Origin: a virus
Strand: one strand, 5' to 3'
Virus record (IMG/VR): IMGVR_UViG_3300041955_000238
Coordinates: 1 to 25,586 of that record
Length of the DNA stretch: 25,586 nucleotides
Positions 2,687 to 25,149 of the stretch are shown here, one piece after another. The first letter of the stretch is position 1, and every line of letters starts with the position of its first letter. Below the pieces are notes generated by a model. It made no database searches. It was given only the letters and a program-made list of their open reading frames with translations, and had not been told where the DNA came from. Both the position numbers and the translations under genes were made by a program.

Positions 2687-2980
2687 ATGAACCTCGACCG
2701 CACCTACGCCCGATACAACCGCCTGTACTTCCGCAACTCGTTACCACGCAACACGATAGTCAAATTCGGCCGCCTAAGCGATTGCATCGCGGAGGTGACG
2801 TGGGCCGAGCCGCCCATCATAGTGATTCACAAGCGGTTCCGGCCGTGGAAGAAGCTGGTGCTGTTCTCCCTGCTGCACGAGATGGCACATTTGGGCAGCG
2901 AGGACTTCGGGCATGGGCAGGCGTGGCAGCGGGAGATGATGCGGCTGGCGCGCGCGGGTGCATTCGCCACACTTTGGTGA
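2687..2980 (+). CDS. SprT-like zinc metalloprotease domain protein (97 aa)
   Basis: A minimal SprT/Spartan-type domain. YARYNRLYFRNSLP (residues 7-20) is the typical start of the fold. LLHEMAHL contains the HExxH motif (residues 64-68, two zinc-binding histidines and the catalytic Glu65). FGHGQAWQREM supplies His76 as the likely third ligand. Family members cut proteins bound or crosslinked to DNA. Its position between TerS-like and TerL genes suggests a role in clearing or processing DNA-bound proteins during packaging, but that is inference. There is no ribosome-binding site; a -10 box six bases upstream points to a leaderless message. It is complete for the catalytic core and lacks the zinc ribbon found in cellular SprT. 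Confidence 0.75.
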   Translation: MNLDRTYARYNRLYFRNSLPRNTIVKFGRLSDCIAEVTWAEPPIIVIHKRFRPWKKLVLFSLLHEMAHLGSEDFGHGQAWQREMMRLARAGAFATLW

Positions 2981-3030: not shown

Positions 3031-3306
3031 ATGCTAAGTTGGGACGATTTCGACAACCGAACGACCAAAATCATTTGCGACAGTTGCCACAAGGAGATCA
3101 CCGACGCTGCCAAGCGCTATCTCAAGCGTGAGGGCATTCCACAACGTCAGCGTGATCTGTGGGAATTGCAGAGTCAACACACCATCAAACTATTCGGTAA
3201 AGTGTTTGTAGTCATGAACTTCAACAAAGGAGATTCACATGTCTGGTTCCGAAACATTGTCAAATACCTACGATCTGGGTTCTCTCAAGTTCTGGGCGCT
3301 CGGTGA
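3031..3306 (+). CDS. Small hypothetical protein with one CxxC pair (91 aa)
   Basis: Not recognised. The start ATG has AAAGGAG seven bases upstream. Residues 14-21 (KIICDSCHKE) carry one CxxC pair; the middle is charged and likely helical, and a hydrophobic strand (IKLFGKVFVVMNFN) follows. The last 22 codons overlap the start of the co-chaperonin gene by 68 bases, a long overlap for this phage, so the C-terminus may be dispensable. It directly precedes the GroES-like gene, probably on the same transcript, so a related role is possible but not shown. Confidence 0.65.
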   Translation: MLSWDDFDNRTTKIICDSCHKEITDAAKRYLKREGIPQRQRDLWELQSQHTIKLFGKVFVVMNFNKGDSHVWFRNIVKYLRSGFSQVLGAR

Positions 3307-3763
3307 TCGCGTTCTGATCGAGGAAGATCAATTCAAGACCGGCTACGAATGTCCAGTCTGCGACGGCGCGCAGAAGGTGCCGTGCGAGGCTTGCGGTGGT
3401 ACAGGCCGAAGTGCTAGAGTAAAAGCAGCCCGATGTGCCACCTGTGCCGGGGAAGGCTCTACAGTGTGCCCAGAATGCGCGGGAAAGGGTGGTCTGCTGA
3501 TTGCCCCGGACACCGCCCAGCGCCGTCCCACCACTGGCTGTGTGGTCAGCATAGGCCCAGAATGCAAGACGCTCAAGGTCGGGGACAACGTACTCTATTC
3601 AAACTTCGCGGGTTACGACCTTCAACTCGACCGCGCCGGGCGCAAAGTGGTGCTCCGTATCCTCCACGAACCCGAAATCCTGTGCGCGATGGATGGCCAC
3701 CTCGACCTACGCTCTCTCCGCCACCAGTCCCAGATCGCGGAGTTCGGAGGCACTCATGGCTAA
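3239..3763 (+). CDS. Chimeric co-chaperonin: GroES (Cpn10) fold with a DnaJ-type zinc-finger domain in the mobile loop (174 aa)
   Basis: Residues 17-33 (KFWALGDRVLIEEDQFK) match the first GroES strand region, with its hallmark DRVLI. The chain then breaks into four DnaJ-type repeats: CPVCDGAQ (38-45), CEACGGTG (49-56), CATCAGEG (66-73) and CPECAGKG (77-84). Eight cysteines can bind two zinc ions as in DnaJ. GroES resumes at GGLLIAPDTA (84-93), TTGCVVSIGPE, VGDNVLYSNFAGYDLQLD and EPEILCAMD. The insert therefore sits at the tip of the mobile loop, and L86-L87-I88 could be the hydrophobic tripeptide that docks on GroEL. Cellular GroES is about 97 residues; the insert explains most of the extra length. 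AAAGGAG precedes the ATG by six bases. Probable role: capsid-protein folding with host GroEL, with added client binding through the zinc domain (inference). Confidence 0.85.
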   Translation: MSGSETLSNTYDLGSLKFWALGDRVLIEEDQFKTGYECPVCDGAQKVPCEACGGTGRSARVKAARCATCAGEGSTVCPECAGKGGLLIAPDTAQRRPTTGCVVSIGPECKTLKVGDNVLYSNFAGYDLQLDRAGRKVVLRILHEPEILCAMDGHLDLRSLRHQSQIAEFGGTHG

Positions 3764-4055
3764 CCCCATCATTCCACTCGATCCTGCGCAGCAAGGGCAG
3801 GTTTGGCAGTACGCCGCCCGTGAAGGCTACCCCTACCGCTGCCTCGTAGCGCTCGACATGTTTGCCAACACATTGACCGGTGGCTACTTATGCGAGACCA
3901 TCAGCTCCCGCTCCGCCCGTGCTGACCGCGCGGGCAAGTGGTGGGGCACCGCCATGTCATGGTTCCTTGACCTGTTCGAGTACGACCACGGCGCAAAGGC
4001 AATGGCGGCTGATGCGGAGAGAGCCACCTTCATTCAATCAATCGAGCACCAGTGA
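3756..4055 (+). CDS. Small hypothetical phage protein (99 aa)
   Basis: Not recognised. The ATG at 3756 was chosen because GGAGG ends five bases upstream and because it overlaps the co-chaperonin stop by only eight bases; an upstream in-frame start would lie deep inside that gene. The protein starts MANPIIPLDPAQQGQVWQYA and contains YRCLVALDMFANTL and GKWWGTAMSWFLDLFEYD, aromatic-rich and probably helical. No motif is recognised. It is translated with the co-chaperonin and precedes the large terminase. Confidence 0.7.
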   Translation: MANPIIPLDPAQQGQVWQYAAREGYPYRCLVALDMFANTLTGGYLCETISSRSARADRAGKWWGTAMSWFLDLFEYDHGAKAMAADAERATFIQSIEHQ

Positions 4056-4102: not shown

Positions 4103-5752
4103 ATGCGTTGGACCCCCCTCGACATCCCGGTCAACCCAAGCCAAAAGGTGCTCAAACTCGTCTACCGCCTTAACGCCCTCGGCTCCCTCTACTTCTTCGA
4201 GAAGAACATCCTTGGCCGCGACCGCCTCTCCCCCACCTTTCACAAAGGCGTCCTCACCCGCCTCGAAGCCGACCGCCCACGCTATCTCCTTGAAGCACCA
4301 CGAGATCACTACAAAACCGTGATGGTGACCGAGGGCCGGAACATGTGGCGCTCCCTCCCCTTCAACGAGGCCGACGAAGCCGCCATGCGCGAACTAGGCT
4401 ACGACGACGCTTGGATCGCTTGGATGAAGCGCACCCACAACCCCAAACGCCGCACCCTCGTTGTTTCCGAAATCCTTGAAAACGCCATCAAGATCGGCTC
4501 CCGCATCGACTGGCACTACCGCGAGAACGCCGCCTTCAAGTTCACCTTCCCCGAAATCATCCCCGACAAGGACTGCATTTGGAACAACGAAACCAAAACC
4601 CACAAGTGCGGCCAGCGCGGTCCCCAAGGCGAAGGCACATACGACTACCTCGGCGTCGGCGGCGCTCTCCAATCCCGCCACTACCACGACGTTTATGAGG
4701 ACGACGTGGTGGGCAAAGAGGCCCTCGAATCCGAGCTGGTGATGGAAAAGACCCACAACTACCATCGCCTCCTGATCGGCGCATTCGAGTCCTACAAAGA
4801 CGCCTCATGGGTCGTGGTCAACAACCGGTGGTCGCCGAATGATCTCAGCGGCTGGATTCGCAAGAACCAGCCCGAGTTCTACATCGAGTCCCACTCCGCC
4901 CTTGGCGGCTGCTGCGCCGAACATCCTCCCGGCGTCCCCATCTTCCCAGAGGAGTTCTCCATCGAGACCCTCGCCGAGATCAGGCGCGTCCAAGGCCCCT
5001 ACTACTTCTCTCACCAGTACCTCAACCTCCCCGTCAACCCGGAGGAGTGCATCTTCAACAAGGACTGGATTCGCTTCTACAGTCCCGTCAAATCCCCTAC
5101 CATGAGCGACCGTCAATGGCTCCGCCACGATGTCCGCAACGGCGAGACGATCCATGACCTCGACCCCCGCACCCTTGTGCGCTCGATGGTAGTCGATCCC
5201 AACCACGCCGAAGAACACGGCCGCTGCCACCACGGCATCGTAGTCACCGGCTTTGATCCCGATACCGACCGCATCTACCTTCTCGACGTTTGGGCCAAGA
5301 GTTCGTCCTACGATGAACTCGTCCACAACATCTTCTGCATGGCCAAGCGCTGGGGCCTCCCCGAGTTCTGGCTGGAGACCAATGCCGCCCAGCGGTTGCT
5401 GCGGTATCCGGTCGAATACGTCAACAAGTCCGGCTTCACCTATGAAGGCCAACACGTCCAATACCGTCTCACCATCAAGGAGCTAAAAGCCGACCGTGGC
5501 GCTAATGCCAAGCGAGTCCGCATCGAGGCGCTCGAACCACTGTTCCGCGAGGGCCGGTTCTGGGTCCGCACCGACCAAGAGGAGTTCTTGGAGGAATACT
5601 ACAACTATCCCGGCGGCCGCACGGTCGATGTGCTCGACTGTCTCGGTTACGCCACCCAAACGTGGAATGCCATTCACGCCCGCCGCATCCTCGATCTGGT
5701 CCGCGAACGCAAAGAGAAATGGAAAGGCTATCACTCCACGATCAGGGCGTGA
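4103..5752 (+). CDS. terL: Terminase large subunit (549 aa)
   Basis: The DNA-packaging motor ATPase and nuclease. Residues 64-72 (EAPRDHYKT) are a degenerate Walker A of the terminase type. HDVYEDD (195-201) is Walker B with its acidic pair, and VVVNNRWSPND (237-247) fits the coupling motif. The C-terminal RNase H-like nuclease shows Asp365 in MVVDPNH, Glu425 in WLETNAAQ and Asp512 in VDVLDCLGY, the usual acidic triad. The length is normal for TerL. The ATG has AGGAAG upstream. An insert with CIWNNETKTHKCGQRG (158-173) between Walker A and B contains two Cys and one His; its role is unknown. It acts at the portal, with the TerS-like protein as likely partner. Confidence 0.93.
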   Translation: MRWTPLDIPVNPSQKVLKLVYRLNALGSLYFFEKNILGRDRLSPTFHKGVLTRLEADRPRYLLEAPRDHYKTVMVTEGRNMWRSLPFNEADEAAMRELGYDDAWIAWMKRTHNPKRRTLVVSEILENAIKIGSRIDWHYRENAAFKFTFPEIIPDKDCIWNNETKTHKCGQRGPQGEGTYDYLGVGGALQSRHYHDVYEDDVVGKEALESELVMEKTHNYHRLLIGAFESYKDASWVVVNNRWSPNDLSGWIRKNQPEFYIESHSALGGCCAEHPPGVPIFPEEFSIETLAEIRRVQGPYYFSHQYLNLPVNPEECIFNKDWIRFYSPVKSPTMSDRQWLRHDVRNGETIHDLDPRTLVRSMVVDPNHAEEHGRCHHGIVVTGFDPDTDRIYLLDVWAKSSSYDELVHNIFCMAKRWGLPEFWLETNAAQRLLRYPVEYVNKSGFTYEGQHVQYRLTIKELKADRGANAKRVRIEALEPLFREGRFWVRTDQEEFLEEYYNYPGGRTVDVLDCLGYATQTWNAIHARRILDLVRERKEKWKGYHSTIRA

Positions 5753-11550: not shown

Positions 11551-12501
11551 ATGATGGTACGCGGTACATTCGCACAAACGCTGGCTCCCGGCGTCCACCA
11601 CTGGTTCCTGCATTTCCTCGATTTGCAGATGCGCGAGGAGGAGTACACCCACGTTGCGAACGTCGAAACCTCGCAACAGGCGTACGAGGACGAAGTGGAG
11701 ATGGCTGGTGTCGGCATGATGCCGGAAAAGCCGGAAGGCTCGTCGGCCATGTACGACGACATGATTCAGGGAGGCACCAAGCGGTACGTCCACCTGAGTT
11801 ATGCCCTTGGCTCCCGCGCTTCTTGGGAACTGATCGAGGACGACCAGTATGGCATCCTCAAGCAAGTGCCCAAGTCGCACGCCCGCTCGGCGCTGTTCGC
11901 CCGCGAGATGGTGTTCTTCAACGTCTTTAACCTCGGGTTCTCCACGATTGTGACGACCGATGGCGTATCGCTGTTCAACACACAGCACCCGCTGTTGGGA
12001 GGCACGGCCGCGACGAACGTGGGGCCGGGATTGACCAACGTGATCTTTGCGGCTGGCACCTATCCCAACCGGCCATCGCCGGACATCGACCTCTCCTTCA
12101 CGGGAGTGCAGTTGATGGTCAACCAGTTCGAGCGCATGATCGACTCGCAGGGCATTCCTGTGCGGGTGAAACCTCGGCATGTGCTGATCCCGCCCGAACT
12201 CAAGTTCATCGCGCGCGAGATTCTGGGTTCGCCGGGCAAGCCCTATACGAACGACAACGAGATGAACGCGCTGTTGGGCGAGCATCTGTCGTTCCGCGTC
12301 ATCCACTACCTCACCTCGCAGAGCGCGTGGTATGCGGTAGCGGAGAAGGACGCGCATCAGGTGAAGTTCTTCGACCGTCATCCCATCGACACCGATTACG
12401 ATGACGATTTCGATACCCGCGCCACCAAGATGATTACGTTCCAGCGCTTCTCCGCCGGTGCGACTTCTTGGATTGGGACGTGGGGCAGCAACGGGCCGTA
12501 A
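11551..12501 (+). CDS. Major capsid protein (316 aa)
   Basis: The main shell subunit, probably with an HK97-type fold. LFNTQHPLLGGTAATN (141-156) is typical of Mu gpT-like major head subunits as I remember them. MVNQFERMIDSQGIPVRVKP followed by RHVLIPPELKFIAREILGSP matches the segment before the axial domain, and the C-terminus (TRATKMITFQRFSAG) matches the usual last strand. The acidic N-terminal region (EVETSQQAY-like, residues 36-60) could be the N-arm. An ATGATG start allows two adjacent starts; GGAG lies about ten bases upstream. No separate maturation protease is seen in the head block. Confidence 0.75.
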   Translation: MMVRGTFAQTLAPGVHHWFLHFLDLQMREEEYTHVANVETSQQAYEDEVEMAGVGMMPEKPEGSSAMYDDMIQGGTKRYVHLSYALGSRASWELIEDDQYGILKQVPKSHARSALFAREMVFFNVFNLGFSTIVTTDGVSLFNTQHPLLGGTAATNVGPGLTNVIFAAGTYPNRPSPDIDLSFTGVQLMVNQFERMIDSQGIPVRVKPRHVLIPPELKFIAREILGSPGKPYTNDNEMNALLGEHLSFRVIHYLTSQSAWYAVAEKDAHQVKFFDRHPIDTDYDDDFDTRATKMITFQRFSAGATSWIGTWGSNGP

Positions 12502-23892: not shown

Positions 23893-25149
23893 GTGCGCAT
23901 CCTCTTGGTCAGCGTCAACGGTGACGGAACATGGTTCGCGCACATCCTCGCCAAAGAAGGCCACGATGTCCAATGGGTCTGCGCCTCCGAGAAGGACGCC
24001 ACCTCTCTCGCCGGAATCGTCCCTGCCCCCCTCAAGCGAGTACCTTCTCCCGACGCCTACGACCTTATCGTATTTGATTCCTCCTCTCTCGGCGATGCGG
24101 CCGATTCCGCCCACACTATCACACCCACAATCGGTTCCAGCGCCCTCGCCGACAAGCTAGAGCACGACCGCATCTTCGGCATCGAGTCGATGGAGGACGC
24201 GGACATCAAAGTGCCCTCGTGGCAGTCCTTCGACAAGCCCTCCGAGGCCATCGCTTGGCTCAAGAAGAACGACGCCAAGTGTGTCCTCAAGCCGGTCGGC
24301 GACGCCCCCTCCGACTGCACCTACGTCGCAAACGACGCCGAGGACATGATCCACTACATCGAGAACCAGCTCCACCCCAAGGTCAAAGCGTTCGTGCTCC
24401 AAGAGTTCGTGGCGGGCGTGGAGGTCAGCACCGAGGCATGGTGGACCGGCACCGAGTTCGTCGCCATCAACCACACGCTGGAGGAAAAGAAGTTCATGGC
24501 CGGAGGCATCGGTCCCAACACCGGCGCGGCAGGCACGGTCTTGTGGATGCCCGACGGCCCCAACGTCCTCTACGAGCAGGGTCTCGCTAAAATAGCCCCT
24601 CTGTTGGAGGTATCGAATTTTGTGGGTATGCTCGACCTGAACACCATCGTTACGGAGGGAGGCGCGTATGGACTGGAATGGACTCCACGCTTTGGCTACG
24701 AGGGCACTTGCAATCTCACCCGTCTGTTACCTTGCGGCTTCGGCGACTTTATGCTTGGCGTGGCGACAGGCCATGCGCCGACTCTCGCGTCCCCGAAGGC
24801 CCGGTTCGCGGCTACGATCCGCCTATCGGTGCCTCCGTACCCCAACGCCGAAAGCAGCCGCAAGCACGAGCACGTCCCCATCAGCGGTATTGACCTCGAC
24901 CACCTCGAACGATTCGTCCTCTACGACGTGATGCTCGACGGGGACCAGCTCGTCACCGGCGGCACCTACCAAGTGATCGGCAGCCCCATCGGCTGCGGCG
25001 AGACCATCGAGTCCGCCTTCGAGGAGGTGGATGCTGTCATCAAGGCGCTCAAGGTGCCTAACCTCCAATACCGCAACGACATAGCAAGCTGCGTCCGCAA
25101 GCGCTACGACCAGCTTGAGCGGTGGGGGTGGCTGCGTCATGTGCGATAA
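23893..25149 (+). CDS. PurD-like ATP-grasp enzyme (418 aa)
   Basis: The length and layout match phosphoribosylamine-glycine ligase (PurD, about 420 residues): MRILLVSVNGDGTWFAHILA at the N-terminus, Lys133 in CVLKPVG binding ATP, LQEFVAGVEVSTEAW (169-183), MAGGIGPNTGAAGTV (202-216) and the metal-binding end of the domain, Asp248-Asn250 and Glu262 in GLEWTPRFGYE. The usual PurD NARFGDPE is changed to WTPRFGY, so the acceptor may differ. ATP-grasp enzymes join a carboxylate to an amine using ATP. A lone copy among late phage genes is not a purine pathway; it may modify a nucleotide, peptide or virion protein. GTG start with GGAG seven bases upstream. Confidence 0.75.
   Translation: MRILLVSVNGDGTWFAHILAKEGHDVQWVCASEKDATSLAGIVPAPLKRVPSPDAYDLIVFDSSSLGDAADSAHTITPTIGSSALADKLEHDRIFGIESMEDADIKVPSWQSFDKPSEAIAWLKKNDAKCVLKPVGDAPSDCTYVANDAEDMIHYIENQLHPKVKAFVLQEFVAGVEVSTEAWWTGTEFVAINHTLEEKKFMAGGIGPNTGAAGTVLWMPDGPNVLYEQGLAKIAPLLEVSNFVGMLDLNTIVTEGGAYGLEWTPRFGYEGTCNLTRLLPCGFGDFMLGVATGHAPTLASPKARFAATIRLSVPPYPNAESSRKHEHVPISGIDLDHLERFVLYDVMLDGDQLVTGGTYQVIGSPIGCGETIESAFEEVDAVIKALKVPNLQYRNDIASCVRKRYDQLERWGWLRHVR
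24593..24615 (-). repeat. Dispersed spaced repeat, copy E
   Basis: On the minus strand: CGATACCTC, centre CAAC, then AGAGGGGCTA. It lies inside the ATP-grasp gene (residues IAPLLEVS), in the orientation of copies A and D. Confidence 0.85.

Follow-up and report, generated by a model that had tools for sequence, protein, structure and literature searches.

Can the mobile loop of a phage co-chaperonin carry a folded zinc-binding domain, and what might such a protein do during infection? The question is raised by one gene in a virus record of 25,586 bases, which is referred to here as the window; coordinates are window positions unless another record is named. An initial annotation, made from the letters of the window alone, had read the product as a GroES-type protein (Cpn10) interrupted at its mobile loop by a complete DnaJ zinc finger, and had proposed that it joins GroEL docking with client or disulphide handling in the service of capsid folding.

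The gene is an intact open reading frame on the plus strand, with its ATG at 3239 and its stop codon at 3761-3763 (Table 1). The 174-aa product starts with a short N-terminal extension, followed by a GroES strand (ALGDRVLIEED), a loop leg (QFKTG) and a cysteine-rich stretch, after which GG-LLI-APDTAQRRPTTG, with GG-LLI at residues 84-88, leads into the rest of the GroES barrel. A small CxxC-containing ORF at 3031-3306 (+) shares 68 bases with the 5' end of the co-chaperonin gene; it was not found in the other lineages described below and is a doubtful gene.

Table 1. Features of the co-chaperonin locus and its conserved neighbours
Feature	Position	Strand	Basis
SprT-like HExxH protein, conserved upstream neighbour	2687..2980	+	Pfam SprT-like 2.7e-5, slightly under cut-off; synteny
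Ribosome-binding site AAAGGAG of the co-chaperonin gene	3226..3232	+	Read in sequence; ATG 6 nt further 3'
Predicted zinc-insert Cpn10 (GroES-type co-chaperonin), 174 aa	3239..3763	+	Pfam, family scan, model, structure matches
N-terminal Cpn10 strand and first leg of mobile loop, residues 16-35	3284..3343	+	Alignment; model strand 24-29
Putative zinc module within mobile loop, residues 36-83	3344..3487	+	Four CxxC pairs, pLDDT, BSD2 match
Motif 1, CPVCDGAQ	3350..3373	+	Sequence
Motif 2, CEACGGTG	3383..3406	+	Sequence
Motif 3, CATCAGEG	3434..3457	+	Sequence
Motif 4, CPECAGKG, adjoining the GroEL-binding segment without gap	3467..3490	+	Sequence, family alignment
Cpn10 barrel, C-terminal part, residues 84-153	3488..3697	+	Pfam Cpn10; pLDDT 88-97 at 101-150
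Hydrophobic tripeptide LLI, residues 86-88, equivalent to GroES I25-V26-L27	3494..3502	+	Alignment
PECKTLK, short turn replacing the GroES roof hairpin	3557..3577	+	Alignment
Downstream gene, no Pfam match	3756..4055	+	ATG overlaps co-chaperonin stop (ATGGCTAA)
Large terminase subunit, conserved downstream gene	4103..5752	+	PHROG 38, 6.5e-51; synteny

The Cpn10 assignment was recovered readily by profile comparison. Pfam Cpn10 (PF00166) matches residues 80-149 of the window protein (5.1e-10; 39.7 bits, cut-off 21.1), and the PHROG family 'co-chaperonin GroES' matches it at 2.9e-7. The initial annotation had proposed a check with Cpn10 and DnaJ profiles; of the profiles for the insert, Pfam DnaJ_CXXCXGXG scores 15.5 bits in this protein, under its cut-off of 32.7, and BSD2_CRD 25.9 bits, slightly under its cut-off of 27. 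Across the scanned members of the family alignment, Cpn10 is matched by 18 of 18, and DnaJ_CXXCXGXG, the DnaJ central domain, by 13 of 18 at E <= 0.1 (best 8.4e-6).

The CxxC pairs of the insert begin at residues 38, 49, 66 and 77. The description of four CxxCxGxG-type repeats holds for the four CxxC pairs and for three full motifs (CEACGGTG, CATCAGEG and CPECAGKG), but the first motif lacks the last glycine. When the 174-aa sequence was shuffled 200,000 times, at least four CxxC arose in 292 shuffles (0.15%) and at least two full CxxCxGxG in 5. From the cysteine pattern, two zinc ions per module are expected. 'Complete DnaJ zinc finger' was apt insofar as this is a DnaJ/BSD2-type module of four CxxC pairs; judged by its 11/17/11 spacing, however, the insert is nearer the compact BSD2 domain than the full DnaJ domain. 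We assign it to the BSD2 type because it combines four CxxC pairs with a BSD2 sequence match, the structural similarity (Z about 7) being weak by itself. No J-domain match was obtained in the window protein or anywhere in the 25.6-kb record.

For structure prediction with AlphaFold2, the family rows were supplemented with 13 rows of insert-free viral Cpn10s. The resulting model of the protein alone has a mean pLDDT of 82.8, with 91-95 at residues 41-80 and 88-97 at residues 101-150. On the family alignment alone, the zinc module was again predicted (pLDDT about 90) and the Cpn10 part stayed below 50, with no Cpn10 body, so that confidence in the modelled body depends on the added insert-free GroES rows. 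In the model obtained with these rows, the window protein has the GroES beta-barrel fold, as the initial annotation had anticipated: its body superposes on solved Cpn10s of M. tuberculosis (Z 11.2) and Xanthomonas (Z 10.7), on gp31 in its GroEL complex (Z 10.3, VIA-align) and on E. coli GroES 1AON (Z 8.1), while residues 34-87 superpose on BSD2 (Z 7.1, 30% identity). Foldseek probabilities for the structure matches were 1.00. In the alignment, the window protein has no roof hairpin, a 7-residue turn standing in place of the 15 residues of ordinary GroES.

We scanned IMG/VR with the window protein, with growing family alignments and with the terminase, and recovered 21 distinct insert-bearing proteins from about 20 metagenome data sets, the window protein included and one clipped by a contig end. 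Identity to the window protein ranges from 41 to 63%. In the 14 records searched for it, Cpn10 scored above its cut-off in all 14, with one Cpn10 per record. The insert is thus conserved, and the outcomes that the initial annotation had named as telling against its reading did not arise: a Cpn10 fold, an unbroken frame and the same architecture in related phages were found. Eighteen members have four CxxC pairs and two have two (the L003 and L012 type); the clipped member shows the last pairs only. The docking tripeptide was correctly singled out as kept, since its position is hydrophobic in nearly all 21 members and the GroES-like glycines that flank it are retained across the 21 proteins; in one or two, the loop end is atypical (L037, GGVAVP; L048, MLLEIP). 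The last CxxCxGxG abuts the GroEL-binding tripeptide with no linker.

The site of insertion could be located by comparison with phage Cpn10s that lack the insert. Three records (L050, L051 and L075) encode near-identical proteins of this kind, which have the segment DTAQRRPTTG in common with the window protein. In L050 and L051, DPFK-YEGLIKIP stands at the position of DQFKTGYEC...CAGKGGLLIAP in the window protein, and the empty site in L050 runs REDPFK-YEGLIKIPDTAQRRPTTG; the insert therefore lies within the mobile loop, immediately before the docking segment. With Pfam Cpn10 and the model, this empty site supports the original proposal that a DnaJ-type zinc module interrupts a Cpn10 fold in its mobile loop. 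In a tree built from the Cpn10 part only, which has several long branches and unsettled bootstrap values, the 20 full-length insert-bearing proteins cluster (89/76) with L050 and L051 adjacent, and ordinary viral GroES is separate (100/98). The two-pair members sit in two different groups with four-pair members in the same tree (97/91 and 93/88), a placement that suggests two separate reductions; from their spacing of 17 and 21, the pairs that were kept appear to be the inner ones, motifs 2 and 3.

The two parts of the protein have evolved at different rates. The eight cysteines are invariant in the 18 four-pair members, the remaining insert positions show a mean conservation of 45%, and the Cpn10 core one of 70%. 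In six pairs, the insert had a higher dN than the Cpn10 part by a factor of about 2 to 7, a comparison confined to dN as synonymous sites are mostly saturated. Such a pattern would be the expected look of a zinc-held scaffold with an adaptable surface.

Searches beyond this family delimited its distribution. Narrow search patterns, built on the family alignment and on the terminase, turned up no homologue in 84,980 bacterial species genomes, and no close terminase or portal relative was found among 50,697 records of isolated phages. Plasmid matches proved to be ordinary GroES aligned on the Cpn10 part only. One further hit (H11) was discarded as not a Cpn10, being a protein of many CxxC repeats from a 636-kb uncultured phage; L006:2-1492 (+), in a 636-kb uncultured phage, codes for an N-terminal domain without assigned function followed by over ten repeats of the CxxC type. 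In addition, L052:2920-3288 (+) encodes a roofed phage GroES whose C-terminal extension has cysteines in a zinc-ribbon-like arrangement (CLHTG...CVDCG); this may be a second route to a metal site on a viral co-chaperonin.

The position of the gene beside the terminase, pointed out at the outset, is a property of the family: in 19 of 21 lineages it lies upstream of a related large terminase gene on the same strand. Often an SprT-like HExxH gene precedes it, as does a candidate small terminase gene, and an SU10-type portal gene follows; in the exceptions, L047 and L049, no similar terminase lies within 3 kb. Since the start of the next gene falls inside the co-chaperonin stop codon, the two genes are probably translationally coupled. 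A search for Cpn60 in the window record and 15 related ones of up to 49 kb found none, a weak negative because most of these phage records are fragments; the GroEL partner is on this basis presumed to be that of the host. Several other features of these records deserve mention. In the records of L047 and L049, which are among the most distant members, a further small gene encodes a protein that has a J-domain at its C-terminus (L076:233-724 (+) and L077:442-1074 (-)), so that these phages carry an Hsp40 J-domain plus a zinc-insert Cpn10. At L036:1835-3736, about 680 bases separate two parts of the large terminase match; an intein, an intron or an inserted gene is a possible cause. The window also encodes, at 23893-25149 (+), an ATP-grasp protein with PurD (GARS) domains (Pfam GARS_A 1.9e-15, GARS_C weak), unusual for a phage, and positions 1-190, at the contig end, form a low-complexity repeat whose minus-strand translation is rich in Ala (AAHAAYAAY).

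Which proteins such a co-chaperonin might serve can be approached from their sizes. The likely major capsid protein (11551-12501) is a 35-kDa protein that should fit an ordinary GroEL-GroES cage, and it has no cysteines at all; on these grounds the suggested disulphide handling for the capsid is not favored, and a role specific to capsid folding is not supported. The T4 protein gp23, of about 56 kDa, has been called slightly too large for the GroEL-GroES cage (PMC6318259). Both the window terminase (predicted 64.5 kDa) and the portal (73 kDa from the listed start) are larger than gp23, and either is at least as plausible a client as the capsid protein.

Taken as a whole, the protein is, in our estimation, rather probably a phage GroES-type lid for host GroEL, roofless and carrying a client-contacting zinc module in each mobile loop. 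Sequence comparison and the model support the fold, the insertion site, the conservation, the invariant cysteines, the fast-changing surface, the missing roof and the gene context. The subunits would form a seven-fold ring that caps host GroEL in late infection in place of host GroES. Having no roof hairpin, as in gp31, the dome would leave the cage open on top and tolerate larger clients. A folded BSD2/DnaJ-type hairpin with two zinc ions would occupy the N-terminal leg of each mobile loop, joined directly to the tripeptide that grips GroEL, and capping would place seven such modules at the rim of the cage; a large module in this position might, conversely, hinder docking. The variable surface of the module would then most likely contact a folding or emerging client, which may be a packaging or head protein encoded nearby, by analogy with BSD2 holding RbcL after its release from the chaperonin. 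A stiffer loop with higher affinity for GroEL could follow as a side effect. We favor client contact because the zinc domain of DnaJ has a part in binding substrates (PMC4428491), because the nearest fold is BSD2 and because the surface of the module changes fast. BSD2 itself stabilises RbcL assembly, acting after the chaperonin (PMC5859369). A bolder version, which we put forward only tentatively and hold to be somewhat doubtful, is a co-chaperonin that doubles as an assembly chaperone, its seven rim modules holding the client during or after release and thus combining cage folding and hand-over in one protein.

The main rival to client contact is a mechanical role in loop stiffness and affinity. 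The module would then be a rigid collar that orders the mobile loop, ordinarily a disordered one, and alters GroEL affinity or cage height, allowing the phage protein to outcompete host GroES with no contact to the client. The direct fusion of the final zinc motif to the docking tripeptide speaks for it, as do the tuning of co-chaperonin specificity through changes in loop and affinity (PMC3514286) and the longer loop of gp31, which goes with a cage 8% larger (PMC6318259); the exact size of the insert, moreover, is seemingly not critical, two members having two CxxC pairs, one zinc site and another length. A pure spacer or stiffener, however, has no obvious need for two zinc sites in nearly all lineages, and the surface of the insert changes much faster than the docking body. 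On balance we regard this explanation as unlikely, while taking it seriously.

Reuse of the Cpn10 fold, for instance as a terminase regulator or assembly factor whose zinc module binds DNA or terminase and which does not dock on GroEL, is more improbable still. It would account for the tight, long-lasting linkage with the terminase gene, and zinc hairpins of this kind also occur as inserts in phage proteins other than chaperones, for example the HMO-2011-type DNA polymerase (PMC9038755). Against it stand the retention of the docking tripeptide and its flanking glycines in 21 proteins, and a Cpn10 core under more constraint than the insert. We give very little credence to a redox device, in which the cysteine pairs would act as thiol catalysts for caged clients or let the lid be switched by its redox state: the cysteines hold zinc-hairpin spacing, the likely capsid protein offers none as substrate, and most bacterial hosts have a reducing cytoplasm. 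The DnaJ cysteine-rich domain does have weak thiol-reductase activity (PMC4428491). Finally, a fusion of two genes by frame or assembly error, of negligible probability, is ruled out by the homologues: 21 distinct proteins with unbroken frames, drawn from many metagenomes, show this split and have conserved neighbors.

If the lid reading is right and the protein docks on GroEL, the mobile loop will have been shown able to carry a folded domain, nature would have supplied a means of equipping the chaperonin lid with new functions, and it could be tested directly whether a co-chaperonin shares in recognising or releasing clients. Proteins with no insert, one zinc site and two zinc sites occur as a natural series, which makes this an experimentally clean question.

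No paper in the openly accessible published literature that was searched describes a mobile-loop zinc module in a GroES. In keeping with the initial annotation, the combination of Cpn10 with a DnaJ/BSD2 zinc module thus appears to be undescribed, and precedents exist for each half. With the GroES/Cpn10 family (PF00166), the window protein shares the profile match, the barrel fold and the GG plus hydrophobic tripeptide; it differs in its mobile-loop zinc module of about 48 residues, its short N-terminal extension, its C-terminal tail and its lack of a roof hairpin. The insert resembles BSD2, a chaperone of Rubisco assembly in chloroplasts, and the cysteine-rich domain of DnaJ in being a compact hairpin with four CxxC pairs, but BSD2 is a free plant and algal protein and DnaJ carries a J-domain, whereas the module described here sits inside a Cpn10 with no J-domain. 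The HMO-2011-type family-A DNA polymerase has part of a DnaJ zinc domain, with two CxxCxGxG motifs, inserted between its own domains (PMC9038755); there the carrier is a polymerase rather than a chaperone. HspA of Helicobacter pylori likewise combines GroES with a metal-binding part (PMC3856676), in that case a His/Cys-rich C-terminal tail that binds nickel as opposed to a folded zinc module in the mobile loop. A close counterpart among phages is T4 gp31, which caps host GroEL and serves the head-assembly pathway (PMC6318259). Like the window protein, it is a phage Cpn10 fold with an altered mobile loop and no roof loops; the initial remark that gp31 only enlarges the loop was accurate as to the longer loop and overlooked the missing roof (PMC6318259). 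The loop of gp31 is merely longer (22 versus 16 residues) and has no zinc module, and the gene of the window protein, for its part, adjoins the terminase.
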